A stretch of DNA of 37,625 nucleotides from a virus (IMGVR_UViG_3300047445_000039:1-37625); one strand, 5' to 3'; counted from the first letter of the stretch, positions 960-16,080 are shown. The notes: generated by a model from the letters alone, not told the origin. Program-made: numbers and translations.

Positions 960-1145
960 AACGGGCCTGCGGAGGACGGAACCGAATTGGTGACTGTTGC
1001 CTATTGCAATCTAATTAAAACGCCCTATGTAGGCGACGAACGACAAGGCAAGCACGGTAATTAGGTTGTTGCGGGTAACTATCCAACAAAACCAACCACT
1101 TGCTCAAAAATGGCACTGACGTACTACAGACACGAAGGGGAACAG
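960..1145 (+). other. Intergenic leader between integrase and RNA polymerase genes
   Basis: No convincing ORF. It contains a near-perfect inverted repeat: CAATCTAATTA at 1007-1017 and TAATTAGGTTG at 1058-1068 (10 of 11 pair). A small CGCC/GGCG hairpin (1021-1035) lies between the arms. There is no U-tract, so it is not an intrinsic terminator. It is a reasonable place for a promoter or operator for the RNA polymerase gene, or for integrase arm sites, but neither can be shown. The last bases carry the GAAGGGGA ribosome binding site (1134-1141) of the next gene. Confidence 0.4.
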
Positions 1146-3668
1146 ATGGAACATGTGCAGATAGCTGAGGCCCGGGAATACCAACTGGCCGCAGCTTCCC
1201 TGAAGAAGCGGGACAAGCGACAGGCCGCCAGCTTCGGCAGGGGTTCAACTAGCGGCGCCATGGCCCTTAGCAAGCAGATGCTGCCGCGCCTCACTGAATA
1301 CCTATCCGAGAAGTGGAAGGAATACCTCCACGCCAACGACAAAGCCTACAACCTTGAGCGCCTGCTGCGCCAGTTGGGCCCAGAACTCGTGGCTCTGGTT
1401 TGCTTGCAGACCGGCCTGCATGTGGTTGCCGTCCAACCAAAGAAGCAGGTGAAGGCAATCAAGCTGTTCGCTGACAACCTTGAGGCCGAGTGCTTCTACG
1501 CGGGGCTGATGAAGTCCAACAGGAAGCTCGCTGAGCGGGCCACCAAGTATGCGGAGAAGCGCCACGCCAACCAGAAAATGCGCCATGCAGCCGCCCGCGC
1601 TGTAGCTAAGAAGGCCGGGTTCACGAACGACGATTGGTCCGAGGAGGAGCGCATCATTGCGGGAGTGTGGTGCTCCAACCTGCTCACCCAAGGGCTCCCC
1701 GATGTGTTCCGTTGGGACGAGTACACCGAATGGAACAAGGCGCTCGGCATCCCCGAGAAGCACAAGGTTCTGACCGTCTCCGAGGAGGCGCAGGGGTTCA
1801 TGGCTGATGCCGTCAAGGACATGGTGGTACGCAGGCCGGTTTGGCTCCCACGGCTGACCCCTCCCGATCCATGGGTTAGCTACAAGCAGAAGCCGTCCGA
1901 GGACAGCCGGGTGCTAGCTCAGAAGTCGCTGCTCAAGGCGTACAACAACGACCAGATTGCAGAGGTCAAGAAGGCGATAGCTGACGGCACGATGGCGCCC
2001 GCGCTGAAGGGCGTCAACACGCTGCAAGCCGTCCCGTTCAAGATCAACACTTGGCTGTTGGACGTGATGGATCAGGTGCAGGAGAGGGGCATCGTTGTCC
2101 CCGGGTTCACCGTGGCCGATAAGGTCGAGGTGCCCGAGAAGCTGACCGAGGAGCAGTGGCAAGCCTTGGGCCAGGACGAGCGCAAGCTAGCTAGCGAGGA
2201 GCGCTACTCCGCGCAGAAGCTCAACCGGCAGCGACACAGCGACTTGACGCTGTTGGCTCTGGACATGGCCGAGGCGCACCGGCTGGCCGAGGTGCCCGAG
2301 TTCTACATGGGGATGACGATGGACTTTCGGGGCCGCGTGTATCCGTTGCCGCGCTTCAATTTCCAACGGGGCGATCATGTGCGCAGCCTCTTCCTGTTCA
2401 AGAACGGGCTTCCGATTGGCGAAAAGGGTACACATTGGCTACGAGTACACGTTGCCAACTGTTGGGCGCAGAAGGCCCCCGGCGAGGATACCGGGCTCGA
2501 CAAGAAACCAATAGCTGAGAGGGTGCAATGGACGAAGGACAACGCGGACCTACTGGCAGACTACGCAGCCAACCCGCTTACCAATTTAGGTTGGACGCAG
2601 GCAGACAGCCCGTTCCTATTCCTAGCTGGATGCCGAGAATTGTCGAATGCGACTTCAGCAGGATCGAGCTACGTGTGCTCGCTGCCTGTCAGCTTCGACG
2701 GGAGTTGTTCGGGCCTTCAGCACATGGCGGGGGCAATGCTGGCGGAAGAAGGCCGCTTCGTGAACCTGACGGACAACGAAGCGCCGCAGGACATCTACGC
2801 CATTGTGGCTAAGGTGGCCCGCCGTATGGTCGAAGAGGACGCAGGGGGCCAGGACGAAAAGAAGCGCGGCTTTGCCCAGCTGTTCCTTAGCTACAAGGAT
2901 GGCAAGGGCATCGACAGGAAGCTGCTGAAGCGCTCGACAATGACGTTCTGCTATTCGTCAGAGGCCAACGGGATGGGCGATCAGTTCTTTGAGGACCTGA
3001 TGGCGCCATTGCAAGCCGATGCCGTGCGCAACAAGACGCCCCATCACTTCGGGACCGTCAAGGAGCAGGCGGCAGCGGCGCGCTACATGGGCCGCGTGGC
3101 CTATGCGGCGATCACCGAGGTAGTCCGCAAGCCCGCAGAGGCCATGGACTTCCTGAAGGCTCTCGCGGGCGTTATGGCGCACGAGGGGAAGCCGGTTAGC
3201 TGGGTGACACCGGCGGGGATACCGTGCGTCAACCGCTACCACGAGTCAAAAACGAAGACGCTTGAACTATGGCTCCATAATGAGCGCCTGCAATTGACCG
3301 TAGCTACTGGCAAGGAGGCTCCGCTCTTGAAACGCAAGTGTCAGCAGTCGATTGCGCCAAATTGGGTCCACTCGCTGGACGCGGCGCATTTGCTACTGAC
3401 GGCAGGTGCCTGCGCCGACGAGGGCATTACTGACATCGTGACCGTCCATGACTCATTTGGTTGCCTTCCGACACATGCCGACAGGTTCAATGAGATCATT
3501 CGAGAGCAATTTGTGCTGATGTATCAACAACATGACCAATTATCGACCTTACGTACTACAGCAAGCGCTCAGTTGTCAGAAGCAAACCAAAAGCGACTGC
3601 CGCAGCTTCCGACGAAGGGCAAGCTGGATTTAGACGAAGTCCACCGGGCGAAGTACGCCTTTGCCTGA
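1146..3668 (+). CDS. T7-type single-subunit DNA-dependent RNA polymerase
   Basis: Phage transcription enzyme of the T7 gp1 family, about 840 aa (T7: 883). Numbered from 1146, visible active-site residues are Asp518 in FDGSCSG (T7 Asp537), Lys595 and Tyr603 in the O-helix (T7 Lys631, Tyr639) and Asp769 in VHDSFG (T7 Asp812). The protein ends in YAFA, matching the T7 C-terminal foot FAFA. I chose ATG 1146 because GAAGGGGA lies just upstream; an in-frame ATG at 1110 lacks a ribosome site. In the promoter-specificity loop the Arg-Leu-Gln element (T7 Arg756/Gln758) is kept, but the T7 Asn748 position appears to be Glu, so promoters should differ from T7. Expected to transcribe the replication arm and perhaps the virion arm. 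Confidence 0.97.
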   Translation: MEHVQIAEAREYQLAAASLKKRDKRQAASFGRGSTSGAMALSKQMLPRLTEYLSEKWKEYLHANDKAYNLERLLRQLGPELVALVCLQTGLHVVAVQPKKQVKAIKLFADNLEAECFYAGLMKSNRKLAERATKYAEKRHANQKMRHAAARAVAKKAGFTNDDWSEEERIIAGVWCSNLLTQGLPDVFRWDEYTEWNKALGIPEKHKVLTVSEEAQGFMADAVKDMVVRRPVWLPRLTPPDPWVSYKQKPSEDSRVLAQKSLLKAYNNDQIAEVKKAIADGTMAPALKGVNTLQAVPFKINTWLLDVMDQVQERGIVVPGFTVADKVEVPEKLTEEQWQALGQDERKLASEERYSAQKLNRQRHSDLTLLALDMAEAHRLAEVPEFYMGMTMDFRGRVYPLPRFNFQRGDHVRSLFLFKNGLPIGEKGTHWLRVHVANCWAQKAPGEDTGLDKKPIAERVQWTKDNADLLADYAANPLTNLGWTQADSPFLFLAGCRELSNATSAGSSYVCSLPVSFDGSCSGLQHMAGAMLAEEGRFVNLTDNEAPQDIYAIVAKVARRMVEEDAGGQDEKKRGFAQLFLSYKDGKGIDRKLLKRSTMTFCYSSEANGMGDQFFEDLMAPLQADAVRNKTPHHFGTVKEQAAAARYMGRVAYAAITEVVRKPAEAMDFLKALAGVMAHEGKPVSWVTPAGIPCVNRYHESKTKTLELWLHNERLQLTVATGKEAPLLKRKCQQSIAPNWVHSLDAAHLLLTAGACADEGITDIVTVHDSFGCLPTHADRFNEIIREQFVLMYQQHDQLSTLRTTASAQLSEANQKRLPQLPTKGKLDLDEVHRAKYAFA

Positions 3669-11415: not shown

Positions 11416-11603
11416 CGGCCTCTGCGTTCACGATAGCCAGCACATGGTTCTACGGCAACAAGACGAAGACAGGCCCAATCATAGGGCTAGTCGGGCAGGC
11501 GCCGTGGTTGTTCATCATGGTCTCAGGGGGCCTCTGGGGATTGCTCCCCGTCAATGCACTGATGTTCGTTATTCACGGACGTAACCTTTGGAAGATGAAA
11601 TGA
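11394..11603 (+). CDS. Small membrane protein resembling part of PnuC-type transporters
   Basis: 69 codons, GTG 11394 preceded by AAGGAG at 11381-11386, inside the exonuclease 3' end. Two or three hydrophobic segments: IQLAASAFTIASTWFYG (about residues 5-21), IIGLVGQAPWLFIMVSGG (31-48) and LLPVNALMFVIHG (52-64), then basic RNLWKMK. The pattern of a polar KTKTG turn and G-Q-xx-W helix recalls one fragment of nicotinamide riboside transporter PnuC, though far too short to be complete. It probably sits in the inner membrane. The stop overlaps the next ATG (ATGA). Confidence 0.65.
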   Translation: MDTYIQLAASAFTIASTWFYGNKTKTGPIIGLVGQAPWLFIMVSGGLWGLLPVNALMFVIHGRNLWKMK

Positions 11604-12076
11604 CACTCTATCTCGACCTTGACGGGGTCTTAGCTGACTTCGACAAGGCAGCGGGCGCCGCAATGGGCACCGACAACATCTACAAGTACGAGTTCGTCTG
11701 GGGCTCCGATAAGTTCTGGGACAAGATCAACGAGGACCCGGGGTTCTTCGCCAACCTCAACCCCATGCCGGACTGCTGGGACCTGTTTCACCCGGTCTGC
11801 CACCTCAATCCTGTGATCCTCACGGCGATCCCGAGCACCAACGGCGAGAGCGTAGCTAAGCAGAAGCGGGAGTGGGTTGAGGATTACCTTGGGGACTACA
11901 CCGTCATTACCTGTCTGACCAAGGACAAGCCGAAGTTCTGCCAGCCGGGGGATATCCTGATCGATGACCGCGCGGTCAATCGAGATGCATGGGTAGCTAA
12001 GGGCGGCACCTACATCATTCACACGACAGCCGCGCGCTCCATTGGGGCGCTGCAAGCATTGGGGATTATTGACTGA
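11600..12076 (+). CDS. HAD-family 5'(3')-deoxyribonucleotidase-like phosphatase
   Basis: 158 aa, start ATG 11600 overlapping the previous stop. Motif I is YLDLDGVLADF (nucleophile Asp and acid/base Asp two apart). Motif II is in VILTAIPS near residue 75, motif III Lys probably in CLTKDKPKF, and motif IV ILIDDRAVN near residue 123. This matches the NT5C/5'-nucleotidase deoxy group, which dephosphorylates nucleoside monophosphates. In a phage it could tune dNMP pools during host DNA breakdown. Alternatively, given the RNA ligase gene downstream, it could act as an end-healing phosphatase; that is speculation. Confidence 0.85.
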   Translation: MTLYLDLDGVLADFDKAAGAAMGTDNIYKYEFVWGSDKFWDKINEDPGFFANLNPMPDCWDLFHPVCHLNPVILTAIPSTNGESVAKQKREWVEDYLGDYTVITCLTKDKPKFCQPGDILIDDRAVNRDAWVAKGGTYIIHTTAARSIGALQALGIID

Positions 12077-12707: not shown

Positions 12708-12954
12708 TCGGGACGCGCACGGCACTAGCTACCAAATACCAGCAGCAGAGACCATCAAGACCCCGGGGGCCAAGACGCTTCCGGGGTCTCCGCTGTTGGA
12801 CTGCTGGTGGGCTAGGCGCTTCAAGAGCCGCGCTGACGAAACCCTTATCATCAAACAAGAGAACCAATCGGATCGCGCTGACGTGGTCGAGCTAACGCTT
12901 GGCCAAGTCTACGACCTGATTGATGCTCTCAACAAGGCAGTAGAGAACACATGA
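12691..12954 (+). CDS. Small hypothetical protein, 87 aa
   Basis: ATG 12691 has AAAGGAAG about seven bases upstream and overlaps the previous gene by 17 bases. The C-terminal part (ETLIIKQENQ, then VVELTLGQVYDLIDALNKA) is a beta strand pair plus amphipathic helix, typical of small phage proteins of unknown role. Its stop overlaps the RNA ligase ATG by four bases. Confidence 0.65.
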   Translation: MPCLVNRDAHGTSYQIPAAETIKTPGAKTLPGSPLLDCWWARRFKSRADETLIIKQENQSDRADVVELTLGQVYDLIDALNKAVENT

Positions 12955-13556
12955 CTGTTTTCCAGCCGTTCCCGAAGCTTGCCCGACTTTCAAGGGGCTG
13001 CACGATTACCGAGAAGCTCGATGGAACGAATGCACAGGTCTACCTCGTGGACCCTGACGCCGCCGGGCCTGAACTTTACGAAGCGCTCGCGCAGGAGAAC
13101 CCCCTCGCTGTCGTGGGGCCGGGGCTTTGGCTGTACGCAGGCTCCCGCACGCGCCTCATTACCCCGGGTAAGGAGACCGACAACTACGGTTTCGCTAGCT
13201 GGGTGAAGGAGCACGCCGAGGAGTTGGCGGAGCTGGGCGAAGGCCGACACTTTGGTGAGTGGTACGGCCGGGGCATCCAGCGCAACTACGGCTTAGCTGA
13301 GCGCCGCTTCGCTCTGTTCGACACCAGCCGTTGGCCCCCAGAGCGACCGCGCCCCGCGTGTGTCGATGTTGTGCCTGTGCTCCACAACGGCGAGTTCTCA
13401 AGCTCCGCTGTCGAGAACGCCATGGACGAACTGAAGCAGTACGGCTCCGTAGCTGTCCCCGGCTTCATGAATCCCGAGGGCGTCGTGGTCTACCACAGCG
13501 CCTCTCGCGCATCCTTCAAGAAAACCTTCGATGACCGGCACAAGGAGGCCGCATAA
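12951..13556 (+). CDS. RNA ligase, minimal Rnl2-like nucleotidyltransferase
   Basis: 201 aa. Motif I EKLDGTNA with adenylated Lys22, motif Ia-like AGSRTRLI near residue 64, motif III FGEWYGRG near residue 101, motif IV PEGVVVY near residue 182 and motif V FKKTF near residue 192. These are the covalent nucleotidyltransferase motifs of the RNA ligase family including T4 Rnl2 and RNA-editing ligases. The C-terminal domain of T4 Rnl2 is absent, so it is a stand-alone catalytic domain. In T4, RNA ligases repair tRNAs cut by host defences. Such a role here is plausible but not shown. Confidence 0.92.
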   Translation: MTVFQPFPKLARLSRGCTITEKLDGTNAQVYLVDPDAAGPELYEALAQENPLAVVGPGLWLYAGSRTRLITPGKETDNYGFASWVKEHAEELAELGEGRHFGEWYGRGIQRNYGLAERRFALFDTSRWPPERPRPACVDVVPVLHNGEFSSSAVENAMDELKQYGSVAVPGFMNPEGVVVYHSASRASFKKTFDDRHKEAA

Positions 13557-13743: not shown

Positions 13744-14106
13744 ATGACCTCTGATGTGGAAGCCGTCCTAAAGACGCTTCCTCGCAGGATCAAGGTTGGG
13801 GCTTACGATTGGCGCATCAAGGTCGATCCGGGTCCGAGTGAGGACTACGGAGAGACCAACTACGACAAGGCCGAGATAACTATTTGGCCAGCTAACCATC
13901 AGTCTCCCGAGCGCCTCGTGGGTACCGTTATCCACGAGCTGCTTCATGTCATCTATGACAACGAGCAACTCGCGGGCGCTGGCGTGGTTAGCAAGGACCC
14001 GGAGGAGACCATCGTGTGTGGTTTCGAAACCGGCCTTGTCTCCCTGTTCCGCGACAATCCCAAGCTACTCAACTGGATCAAACGAGGACTGAAGAAATCA
14101 CCATGA
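13744..14106 (+). CDS. Zincin-like putative metallopeptidase with HELLH motif
   Basis: 120 aa. GTVIHELLHVIYD (about residues 60-72) is a canonical HExxH zinc site; a third ligand may lie in the following helix. An N-terminal beta region (IKVGAYDWRIKV, then AEITIW) fits a small zincin, and the C-terminus holds a helix with FRDNPKLLNWI. Similar small phage proteins resemble SprT- or ImmA-type peptidases. Substrate unknown; host-takeover proteolysis is possible. Overlaps the next gene by four bases. Confidence 0.75.
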   Translation: MTSDVEAVLKTLPRRIKVGAYDWRIKVDPGPSEDYGETNYDKAEITIWPANHQSPERLVGTVIHELLHVIYDNEQLAGAGVVSKDPEETIVCGFETGLVSLFRDNPKLLNWIKRGLKKSP

Positions 14107-14258
14107 ACACCATCCAAAAGTTCTACTTCGCTGGCGCGGGGCTCCTGACGCTTGCGTGCGCTTCCGAAGGCGGCCTCACGGCTGCGTGCGTTATGGCTGG
14201 CGTTACGCTGCTGGTCTATGCGGTGGGCCTCTTCATCGCAGCTGACATCAACGGCTGA
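14103..14258 (+). CDS. Small membrane protein, 51 aa
   Basis: ATG overlaps the metallopeptidase stop (ATGA). Two hydrophobic segments: FYFAGAGLLTLACA (residues 7-20) and AACVMAGVTLLVYAVGLFIAA (27-47), with few charges, so probably a hairpin or a single spanning helix in the inner membrane. No family recognised. It is the first of several membrane microproteins leading into the TerB/TerC cassette. Confidence 0.65.
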   Translation: MNTIQKFYFAGAGLLTLACASEGGLTAACVMAGVTLLVYAVGLFIAADING

Positions 14259-14261
14259 AGC

Positions 14262-14375
14262 ATGATCTTCGCGCTGCTCCTCAACCACATTCTCGATGTG
14301 ATCGGCATCTTCGCCATCATCACCACCACCGTCAAAATCGCGCTCCGGTATCCGGTCAAGCGCTGGTTCTTCTGA
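14262..14375 (+). CDS. Membrane microprotein, 37 aa
   Basis: ATG 14262 four bases after the previous stop. One hydrophobic helix (residues 2-25, FALLLNHILDVIGIFAIIT) followed by a strongly basic tail (KIALRYPVKRWFF), which fits a single-pass protein with a cytoplasmic C-terminus. A GCCGC-AAA-GCGGC hairpin (14377-14389) follows. No family; support is composition and spacing. Confidence 0.55.
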   Translation: MIFALLLNHILDVIGIFAIITTTVKIALRYPVKRWFF

Positions 14376-14407
14376 AGCCGCAAAGCGGCAATGAAAGGAA
14401 CACTACA

Positions 14408-14842
14408 ATGGGTTTTCTCTCCAATCTTCTCTCGACCGCCAAGACCAAGATCAACAGCTATGCGGGCGACGCTGCTTTCCTGAAGGGCGTAGCTAGCGCT
14501 GCGGCCAACGTGACCGCCGCCGACGGCTCCATTGATGACAGCGAAATCGAAGCTGCCATTTCGGGCATGCAGGCCAACCCTATCGTCTCGGCTTCCTATA
14601 GCTCCTCGCAGATTGAGGAGGCGCTCAACGGCGCCCTCAGCCGCGCCAAGTCCCGCGCGGGCCGCATGGAGAACAAGCGCTTCATTGAGGCTCTGATGAC
14701 CCGCGACGTCACCGCCCGTCAGGACGTGTTCCTGATCGCTGCGGACGTGGCGGATCAGGGTGGCATCGGCCAAGAGGAGCAGGTTGTGCTCAACGACATC
14801 GCCAAGCTGCTCAACGTGGACGGCGCGAAGCTTCTGTCGTGA
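14408..14842 (+). CDS. TerB-like tellurite-resistance family protein
   Basis: 144 aa, ATG preceded by AAAGGA. The segment VASAAANVTAADGSIDDSEI (about residues 28-47) is the TerB signature: a helix, then an acidic A-A-D-G-x-I-D loop and another helix. A second acidic loop (VADQGGIGQEEQ, near 118-129) is followed by helices ending in LLNVDG, so the whole TerB all-helical fold seems present. TerB proteins are acidic cytoplasmic partners of TerC in stress and metal-linked systems. A TerC-family gene lies 400 bases downstream on the same strand, which strengthens the call. Its stop overlaps a 25-aa ORF. Confidence 0.85.
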   Translation: MGFLSNLLSTAKTKINSYAGDAAFLKGVASAAANVTAADGSIDDSEIEAAISGMQANPIVSASYSSSQIEEALNGALSRAKSRAGRMENKRFIEALMTRDVTARQDVFLIAADVADQGGIGQEEQVVLNDIAKLLNVDGAKLLS

Positions 14843-14916
14843 GCGCTGACATTCTAGGCGTGGCAGTCATCGCGGTAGCCATTCTCTTCGGATACCTCAT
14901 GGCCGAGTGCCGCTAG
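14839..14916 (+). CDS. Possible 25-aa membrane microprotein
   Basis: GTG overlaps the TerB stop (GTGA). The encoded peptide is almost entirely one hydrophobic helix (ADILGVAVIAVAILFGYLMA) with a short charged end (ECR). Support is the overlap geometry, the membrane-helix composition and its place among other membrane microproteins. Ribosome site weak. Could be a chance ORF. Confidence 0.4.
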   Translation: MSADILGVAVIAVAILFGYLMAECR

Positions 14917-14931
14917 CTAACAAGGAACACC

Positions 14932-15165
14932 ATGTTCTCCAAGATCAAAGCATTCTTCGTCGGCGTCGAGCACGATGTTGAGGCGATCATCGCCAACTTC
15001 ACCAATACCGTGGCGCGGCTGGAAGCTGCGGCCGAGGCGAAGGCGAAGGAGGCGGCCGAGCACTTCCGCACTTCGACCAAATACGAGCAACTCAGCGACG
15101 AGGCGGCGGCTGCGGCCGAGAAGGCCAAGGACGTTGCTGCCAAGATCAAGGCCCTCGTGGCCTAA
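14932..15165 (+). CDS. Small helical (coiled-coil) protein, 77 aa
   Basis: ATG 14932 has AAGGA upstream. The protein is almost wholly helical and Ala/Glu/Lys-rich (TVARLEAAAEAKAKEAAEHF and DEAAAAAEKAKDVAAKIKA), with an amphipathic N-terminal FSKIKAFFVGV that could touch a membrane. It lies between the TerB- and TerC-like genes and probably shares their transcript. No family recognised; an adaptor or scaffold role in that cassette is inference. Confidence 0.65.
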   Translation: MFSKIKAFFVGVEHDVEAIIANFTNTVARLEAAAEAKAKEAAEHFRTSTKYEQLSDEAAAAAEKAKDVAAKIKALVA

Positions 15166-15251
15166 GAGGCATCCATGGGTCGCGCCCGTGGCGACGAGTG
15201 AAATCGTGACAGGAGGGGAGAGACCCTCACATCAATTCAAAAGGAAACACT
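15166..15251 (+). promoter_or_regulatory. Short leader upstream of TerC-like gene
   Basis: 86 bases without a convincing ORF. Two small hairpins: GTCGC/GCGAC (about 15179-15195) and GAGGG/CCCTC with a 6-base loop (about 15213-15228), then AT-rich sequence and AAAAGGA before ATG 15252. TerC-family genes in bacteria are often preceded by the manganese-sensing yybP-ykoY riboswitch; this leader is short and I do not see that consensus. It may simply be an untranslated spacer. Confidence 0.35.
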
Positions 15252-15914
15252 ATGGACACTATGTTCTGGGCCGCGCTTCTTGGCATCGTCTGGATTGACT
15301 TGCTGCTCTCCGGCGACAATGCGCTGGTTATCGCTATGGTCAGCCGTCAGCTGCCAGCTAATCAGCAGAAGTGGGGCATCATTGGGGGCACCGTTGCCGC
15401 TATCGGCCTCCGGGTGGCCATGGCGTTCTTCGCTGCGGCCCTGCTAGGCGTACCCGGGCTCAGCCTGATCGGCGGCGCCTTCCTGCTCTACGTGGCAGCT
15501 AAGCTCGTCATGGGCGGGGACGAAGAGGAGGGCTCCCTGAAGCCCGCAGTGACCCTATGGGCCGCCATCGGCACCATTGCAGCTGCGGACGCCAGCATGA
15601 GCCTTGACAACGTCATGGCCATTGCTGCGCTGTCTCACGGCTCTCAGTTGCTCATGGCGCTGGGCGTGCTCCTGTCGATCCCGCTGGTTATCGCGGGCGC
15701 CGCAATCATCTCAAAGCTCATTGGTCGCTTCCCGGTCCTCGTGTGGGCCGGTGGCGCTCTGTTGGCTTGGGTTGCTGGCGGCATCATCGCGGCTGACCCG
15801 TGGGTGGCGCCTTACGTCGATCACTACATGGCGGCGGCGGCCTGCGTAGCTGCGGTGCTTGGTGTTGGTTGGTTTGCAAAGATGGATAAGGACGAGGTCG
15901 CTAATGAAACCTGA
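15252..15914 (+). CDS. TerC-family integral membrane protein
   Basis: 220 aa with about seven hydrophobic helices. Two internal repeats carry the family acidic motifs inside membrane segments: IDLLLSGDNALVIAM (about residues 14-28) and ADASMSLDNVMAIAA (about 114-128). The Asp residues are the likely metal ligands. The family includes TerC and the Alx/YkoY/YjbE group, linked to metal (manganese) export and tellurite resistance. ATG 15252 follows AAAAGGA. With the TerB-like gene upstream this forms a reduced ter-type pair. The gene end overlaps the next start by 11 bases. Confidence 0.92.
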   Translation: MDTMFWAALLGIVWIDLLLSGDNALVIAMVSRQLPANQQKWGIIGGTVAAIGLRVAMAFFAAALLGVPGLSLIGGAFLLYVAAKLVMGGDEEEGSLKPAVTLWAAIGTIAAADASMSLDNVMAIAALSHGSQLLMALGVLLSIPLVIAGAAIISKLIGRFPVLVWAGGALLAWVAGGIIAADPWVAPYVDHYMAAAACVAAVLGVGWFAKMDKDEVANET

Positions 15915-16080
15915 GTTCATACTGATCGATTGGTCGCGCGGAAGCGTGGTCGGCGTCGGTTCGGAAGCTGAGTGCCGCGAGCAACTGACGAAGGCTAAGC
16001 GCAACAACGACCACTTCAACAACACTTACCTCATCTGCGAGGTCAAGGTGATGTCCGAAATGAAGAGAGTGGAGAGCTAA
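15904..16080 (+). CDS. Small hypothetical protein, 58 aa
   Basis: ATG 15904 lies inside the 3' end of the TerC-like gene; AAGGACGAGG lies upstream. Pattern beta-beta-alpha-beta (FILIDWSRGSVVGVG, a helix with AECREQLTKAKRN, then TYLICEVKVM) is common in small phage proteins. No family named. Its TAA overlaps the next ATG (TAATG). Confidence 0.65.
   Translation: MKPEFILIDWSRGSVVGVGSEAECREQLTKAKRNNDHFNNTYLICEVKVMSEMKRVES

Follow-up and report, generated by a model that had tools for sequence, protein, structure and literature searches.

We analysed a stretch of viral DNA of 37,625 nucleotides (nt; IMGVR_UViG_3300047445_000039:1-37625), referred to here at its full length as the window, and centred the analysis on a terB gene and a terC gene that lie close together on its + strand (Table 1). 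A first-pass annotation had joined these two genes, a helical protein and three very small membrane proteins into one cassette. Every open reading frame (ORF) that it named was recovered in place on the + strand.

Table 1. Features of the window, and structured RNAs upstream of terC in related contigs (dN/dS, ratio of nonsynonymous to synonymous substitution rates; aa, amino acids)
Feature	Position	Strand	Description
terB	14408..14842	+	144-aa predicted helical protein; acidic motifs AADGSIDDSE, ADVADQGGIGQEE
Micro-ORF VSADILGVAVIAVAILFGYLMAECR	14839..14916	+	25 aa, predicted single transmembrane segment; GTG start, GTGA overlap with the terB stop
terC leader	15166..15251	+	Small predicted hairpins and a Shine-Dalgarno sequence; fold z = -2.3
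terC	15252..15914	+	220-aa predicted integral membrane protein, YjbE type; Asp-Asn motifs LLLSGDN, MSLDNV
51-aa hydrophobic protein	14103..14258	+	Neighbour only
37-aa membrane protein ending RWFF	14262..14375	+	Separate phage gene; dN/dS 0.26
77-aa helical protein	14932..15165	+	Between terB and terC; lineage-specific passenger
Tyrosine integrase	78-959	+
T7-like RNA polymerase	1110-3668	+	Adjoins the integrase
5'-3' deoxyribonucleotidase-like gene	11588-12076		Upstream of the cassette
RNA ligase (PF09414)	12951-13556		Upstream of the cassette
120-aa ORF	13744-14106		HELLH zincin-like motif; PHROG 1233, function unknown
Structured RNA before terC	L116:5788-5915
Structured RNA before terC	L117:5517-5640
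Structured RNA before terC	L122:5507-5630
Structured RNA before terC	L245:6915-7037

Results

TerC is of the YjbE type and TerB is a probable family member

The TerC call made at first pass held on profile search: the protein matched PF03741 clearly (E=4e-41; 141 bits, cut-off 27.8) and also exceeded the cut-off of TIGR03717, the YjbE subfamily (184 bits, cut-off 134.8). Its motifs LLLSGDN and MSLDN, in two membrane segments, are invariant in 14 homologues, and terC is under purifying selection (median dN/dS 0.22). The structure model was poor (predicted local distance difference test score, pLDDT, 58). By sequence, the window TerC is thus placed in the YjbE subfamily, which is associated with divalent-metal transport, and not with the larger TerC of the tellurite operon.

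This placement bears on the idea that the family names invite, namely that the phage carries a tellurite resistance gene for its host. Ter clusters do confer such resistance in enterobacteria. However, the smallest unit able to confer it is given as TerC-TerD (cited in PMC12054061), and neither TerD (PF02342) nor TelA (PF05816) was found in the 13 carrier records searched, some of which are fragments (0/13 for each). Because TerC belongs to the YjbE subfamily and TerD and TelA are absent, we consider tellurite resistance very improbable.

The window TerB does match PF05099, as predicted, but weakly when this copy is taken alone (E=3e-4; 21.4 bits, under the curated cut-off of 24.4). It matched PHROG 632, 'tellurite resistance', at E=3e-20. 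Two other viral TerBs exceed the PF05099 cut-off (L016, 46.5 bits; L128, 41.9 bits), and since the L016 protein is 50% identical to that of the window, the sequence-based assignment to the TerB family appears sound. Seven positions in two acidic (A)DGxI/V...E motifs (D39, G40 and E46; D113, D116, G121 and E124) are invariant in 16 homologues, and terB is likewise under purifying selection (median dN/dS 0.26). The top Foldseek match of the AlphaFold model (pLDDT 83) was the tellurite protein 2ou3 (COG3793; prob 0.98, E 0.25). VIA gave the model Z scores of 8.2 to 2ou3 (root-mean-square deviation 3.5, 118 aligned) and 11.1 to 2h5n, which lie in the common range for helical bundles. The modelled match to 2ou3 thus agrees with a TerB fold and, for a helical bundle, is no proof of one. 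A sequence search of solved structures gave no match. Globin-like and ferritin-like rows in the fold searches were set aside as common helical arrangements.

terB and terC are kept as a pair across unrelated phages

We scanned 2.9 million viral contigs with TerC, TerB and alignments of each, and checked the results by tblastn and hidden Markov models. The pair was found in 37 contigs, and in 37/37 terB lies immediately upstream of terC on one strand, with gaps of 15-731 nt. Thirty-six contigs have a TerC with at least 50% identity, and all 36 carry terB directly upstream on the same strand; the 37th pair is that of L123. The more distant viral TerBs (at most 41% identity) and TerCs (at most 40%) had no partner nearby. 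In the isolate phage RHph_I1_18, both are present but 18 kb lie between them. The reduced phage ter pair suspected at first pass is therefore real and strongly conserved as a pair, and TerC was the conserved neighbour of TerB in every related phage found.

Among the carriers are podoviruses like that of the window, a second lineage of podoviruses that has another gene order (DNA polymerase ~46% identical) and contigs of up to ~120 kb, several with RNR, DHFR or thyA nearby. In the family of large, RNR-bearing phages the pair sits between the RNR gene and a short gene designated VAKRH, or a VAKRH neighbour (L007, L008, L010, L011, L012 and L017; RNR is off the contig in L017, and L007 has one further ORF at the same site). 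The empty site was found as well: in six relatives that lack the pair (L219, L222, L223, L228, L238 and L239), RNR directly abuts VAKRH, the two genes overlapping by a few nt (TGATG in L238 and L239). Both genes were thus inserted together at one site.

Phylogenies of the two proteins disagree. A second TerB subtype (L001, L003, L004, L014 and L042-L044; support 100/100) spans two TerC clades: the TerBs of L001, L003 and L004 group with those of L014 and L042-L044, and the TerCs of L001, L003 and L004 group with that of the window. L013 combines a window-type TerB with an L019-type TerC (support 100/99). This disagreement is supported. TerB and TerC alleles have been swapped independently, and the pair is nonetheless unbroken in the 37-contig sample. 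We conclude that terB-terC is a mobile two-gene module carried across unrelated phage backbones.

Could two unrelated accessory genes simply have become neighbours by chance in related phages? Carriers may share a host group and recombine, and their sequences are phylogenetically non-independent, as such neutral hitch-hiking would have it. Yet it predicts many phages with one gene only at the same site, and 0/37 contigs are of that kind. Nor does it fit a pair that persists in unrelated backbones although either gene has been replaced independently, that entered one site as a unit and in which both members are under purifying selection. We give hitch-hiking hardly any weight.

A slot for a micro-ORF follows terB

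In 15/17 podovirus loci, a count inflated by the relatedness of these loci, a hydrophobic micro-ORF of 23-31 aa begins on the terB stop codon (NTGA or TGATG). At other ORF ends of the same loci such overlaps are found 12 times in ~840 (1.4%), and at bacterial terB ends in 0/45. As for the remaining two loci, the micro-ORF of L043 starts a few nt further upstream and L014 has none. The slot is filled by at least four unrelated sequences; because unrelated versions occupy one position, the pattern argues for selection on a property rather than on sequence. Five large phages have instead a predicted single-transmembrane ORF of 32-39 aa that overlaps the terC stop; its ratio of nonsynonymous to synonymous polymorphism (pN/pS) is 0.45 in frame and >1 in the other frames.

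Further hydrophobic micro-ORFs start on a preceding stop codon elsewhere (L003:4566, L015:4798, L019:8951, L031:3969 and L006:3761), and such coupling of tiny membrane proteins may be widespread in this podovirus group.

Of the three tiny membrane proteins first assigned to the ter pair, only the 25-aa one, which occupies this slot, looks like part of the module; the 37-aa and 51-aa proteins dropped out. The 37-aa RWFF protein has a fixed length and is conserved across podoviruses and large phages independently of terBC. It occurs in eight further contigs with no terBC in the stretch searched, and three of these records (G495, G496 and G497), searched whole for TerC, had none; its presence in phages in which no terBC was found led us to reject it as a part of the cassette. 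The 51-aa protein is limited to close relatives (98% in L002, ~55% in L003 and L013, absent in most relatives), and its supposed tie to the pair was not upheld. The helical protein between terB and terC fared no better: it is found in close podovirus relatives only, has a variable middle and a dN/dS of 0.49, and was rejected as a cassette component.

The position of the terC leader holds a different, covarying structured RNA in other relatives. In five window-type relatives we observed a structured RNA of ~125 nt immediately before terC, with 28 predicted pairs, of which 4 show double changes. Between L001 and L013, a 14-bp stem of the terC-leader RNA differs mainly by compensatory changes. 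The ~125-nt RNA had no Rfam match, and an exact search of the viral collection with its core returned these five contigs only. A search of the terC leader for tRNAs found none.

The pair is adjacent in phages and not in the host chromosomes examined

We examined bacterial homologues of both genes. Among 45 bacterial terB loci, none had terC within 6 kb, where the contig allowed, and among 24 bacterial terC loci none had terB within ~1.5 kb; in the loci examined, adjacency of the two genes is thus restricted to phages. Phage TerCs stand apart from bacterial TerCs, with 65% identity at most. The TerB profile matched 2/385 Alphaproteobacteria, both of which are also in our Methylobacterium genus sample, and 110/111 Methylobacterium genomes. 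YjbE-type TerC was found in 46/111 Methylobacterium genomes, and the chromosomes of this genus yielded no adjacent pair. At the search threshold, TerB homologues are accordingly near-universal and multi-copy in Methylobacterium and nearly missing from the other sampled Alphaproteobacteria.

The Methylobacterium indicum plasmid pVL1_2 (128 kb) carries the gene order RNR-MazG-terB-terC-DHFR-thyA. The presence of tape measure and tail genes makes it probably a phage-plasmid, and because this phage-like plasmid carries the pair, Methylobacterium is the likely host of the window phage. A search of the 111 genomes for a window-like integrated prophage, with the T7-like RNA polymerase as query, returned one 29% match only.

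The abundance of host TerB (1-4 copies per Methylobacterium genome) raises the prospect of counter-defence, in which phage TerB or TerC would bind or mimic host TerB and disarm a host Ter-linked response. TerB domains do occur in the anti-phage system Shango (PMC10250203), and the TerB subtypes of phages are replaced and reshuffled from one phage to another. A decoy, however, needs neither strict pairing nor an intact TerC, and the phage TerC keeps both Asp-Asn motifs under purifying selection. We judge counter-defence improbable.

The pair lies among replication and nucleotide-metabolism genes

By profile searches, the 37.6-kb window is a virus record with an integrase and T7-like replication genes. 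Its + strand also encodes SSB, an endonuclease, a primase-helicase, a DNA polymerase, an exonuclease and a nucleotidase; the profiled structural genes are on the - strand, and terBC lies near the end of the + strand block. Since a tyrosine integrase adjoins a T7-like RNA polymerase, the phage is probably a temperate T7-like podovirus. A DNA search for an isolate relative returned RNA-ligase and short matches only, and the RNA polymerase is at most ~31% identical to those of the listed isolate phages. Close relatives keep the HELLH ORF just before the cassette.

This setting weighs on the strongest rival to a role in metal homeostasis: superinfection exclusion or envelope protection, in which a TerB-TerC complex would alter the inner membrane and block DNA injection or infection by other phages. 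Exclusion has precedents. The R478 ter cluster inhibits phages (cited in PMC12054061), deletion of terC from a Klebsiella host gave larger plaques, a mild phenotype (PMC12054061), and exclusion is a general proposal for phage Ter systems and jumbo-phage Ter genes (Iyer et al. 2021; PMC7824862). Moreover, the integrase of the window and the apparent phage-plasmid pVL1_2 make lysogeny plausible, and the cassette, like exclusion genes, is accessory. However, the cassette lies among replication and nucleotide-metabolism genes, with no adjoining repressor or lysogenic-conversion genes. The PADLOC models returned only a marginal, partial ThsA match for TerB (E=0.0014) and none for TerC, and both TerD and TelA, which the proposed machinery of Ter exclusion includes, are missing from the 13 carrier records searched. 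Exclusion is possible, but nothing in the locus singles it out, and we rate it as rather unlikely.

Discussion

Because the pair recurs in very different viruses and was not found as neighbours in any host chromosome examined, our results suggest that it serves viruses as a means of controlling metal or stress in the cells that they infect. Our preferred reading, in which confidence and doubt are about evenly balanced, is that terBC is a small mobile metal-homeostasis or stress module (a 'moron') of Methylobacterium phages. TerC, a YjbE-type member of the TerC/LysE superfamily, would sit in the inner membrane, where its two Asp-Asn motifs would carry a divalent cation, most likely Mn2+, from the cytosol to the outside or load it onto exported proteins. 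The acidic, helical TerB may bind metal on the cytosolic side and dock on TerC as a sensor or feeder. The single-transmembrane peptide, supplied in podoviruses by translation coupled to that of terB or, alternatively, by the ORF that overlaps the end of terC in large phages, may modulate or stabilise TerC. Together they would keep the metal and redox balance of the infected or lysogenised cell permissive during phage replication. The metal, the complex, the role of the peptide and the benefit to the phage are all inferred. TerC proteins have Mn efflux activity and take part in metalation of exoenzymes (PMC10550928), and in E. coli proteomics identified TerB as a protein with which TerC interacts (Turkovicova 2016, as cited in PMC11003894 and PMC12054061).

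Several observations weigh against this metal-homeostasis proposal. Terminator-like hairpins separate terB from terC in L014, L031, L042 and L044, so that a single terB-terC transcript is not assured. Codon constraint is not demonstrable on the window micro-ORF (pN/pS 0.93), and the more distant pairs tested include seven in which no such micro-ORF was found. Neither a yybP-ykoY element nor another known Mn riboswitch was detected upstream of terC: the leaders of the window and its relatives had no Rfam match, relaxed thresholds included. Direct TerB-TerC binding was reported for the larger ter-operon TerC and not for YjbE types, and Klebsiella TerC is argued not to be itself a Zn or Mn efflux pump (PMC12054061).

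More tentatively, and with distinctly less confidence than in the metal-homeostasis module as such, we raise the possibility of a three-part device, in which TerB and a fast-replaced micropeptide subunit would retune a YjbE-type TerC. This would be an undescribed phage system for metal control or exclusion, joined in some relatives by an unclassified structured RNA before terC, the core of which was found in no other contig of the viral collection.

What Ter proteins do physiologically, and especially how TerB and TerC are linked, is a long-standing puzzle. Phages have pared Ter down to a TerB-TerC core, to which a membrane peptide is usually added, and this core travels between unrelated genomes as one unit. 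This core offers a minimal, tractable system in which metal homeostasis, stress tolerance and phage exclusion can be set against one another, and a cultured carrier exists in M. indicum VL1 (pVL1_2), a member of the plant-associated genus that is the apparent host.

Ter genes on phages are already known. They have been described in jumbo phages (PMC7824862), Paracoccus phages (PMC6536676) and P. syringae phages (PMC11256456), and these cases, like that of the Pseudomonas Otagovirus VCM, resemble ours as accessory Ter proteins. In those cases, however, TerB occurs alone, TerC alone, or TerC with TerD, TelA or a vWA protein. In phage VCM (contig L048, 3061-6270), for example, we observed one run of genes that comprises a 'tellurite resistance' gene, a vWA gene, a YjbE-like TerC and a TerD-like general stress protein 16U. 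The papers searched describe no dedicated two-gene TerB-YjbE cassette with a translationally coupled membrane peptide, and within that compass the TerB-YjbE cassette that moves as a unit among Methylobacterium-type phages appears to be new.

The anti-phage system Shango shares a TerB-like domain with the cassette but needs an ATPase and a helicase beside TerB, whereas in the window TerB has TerC, an RNA ligase and short phage ORFs in its neighbourhood. The micropeptide is comparable to CydX, AcrZ and KdpF by analogy only: these too have ~25-50 aa and one transmembrane helix, and partner a membrane complex. They have no sequence link to the phage peptide, whose putative function is drawn from its position; CydX itself tolerates wide sequence change (PMC6005532).

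With the Mn exporters and metalation proteins (MeeF, MeeY and YjbE of B. subtilis, Alx of E. coli), the phage TerC shares the TIGR03717 match and the two Asp-Asn motifs. It differs from them in having a dedicated TerB partner and no yybP-ykoY match, and in being phage-borne. The canonical ter operon terZABCDEF (R478, pKL53) contains both families, with terB directly upstream of terC, and a TerC-TerB complex has been reported by proteomics (cited in PMC11003894 and PMC12054061). Its TerC, however, has 346 aa, as against the short YjbE type of 220 aa here, and the phage cassette, in which no TerD or TelA was found, is phage-borne and adds a single-transmembrane micro-ORF.

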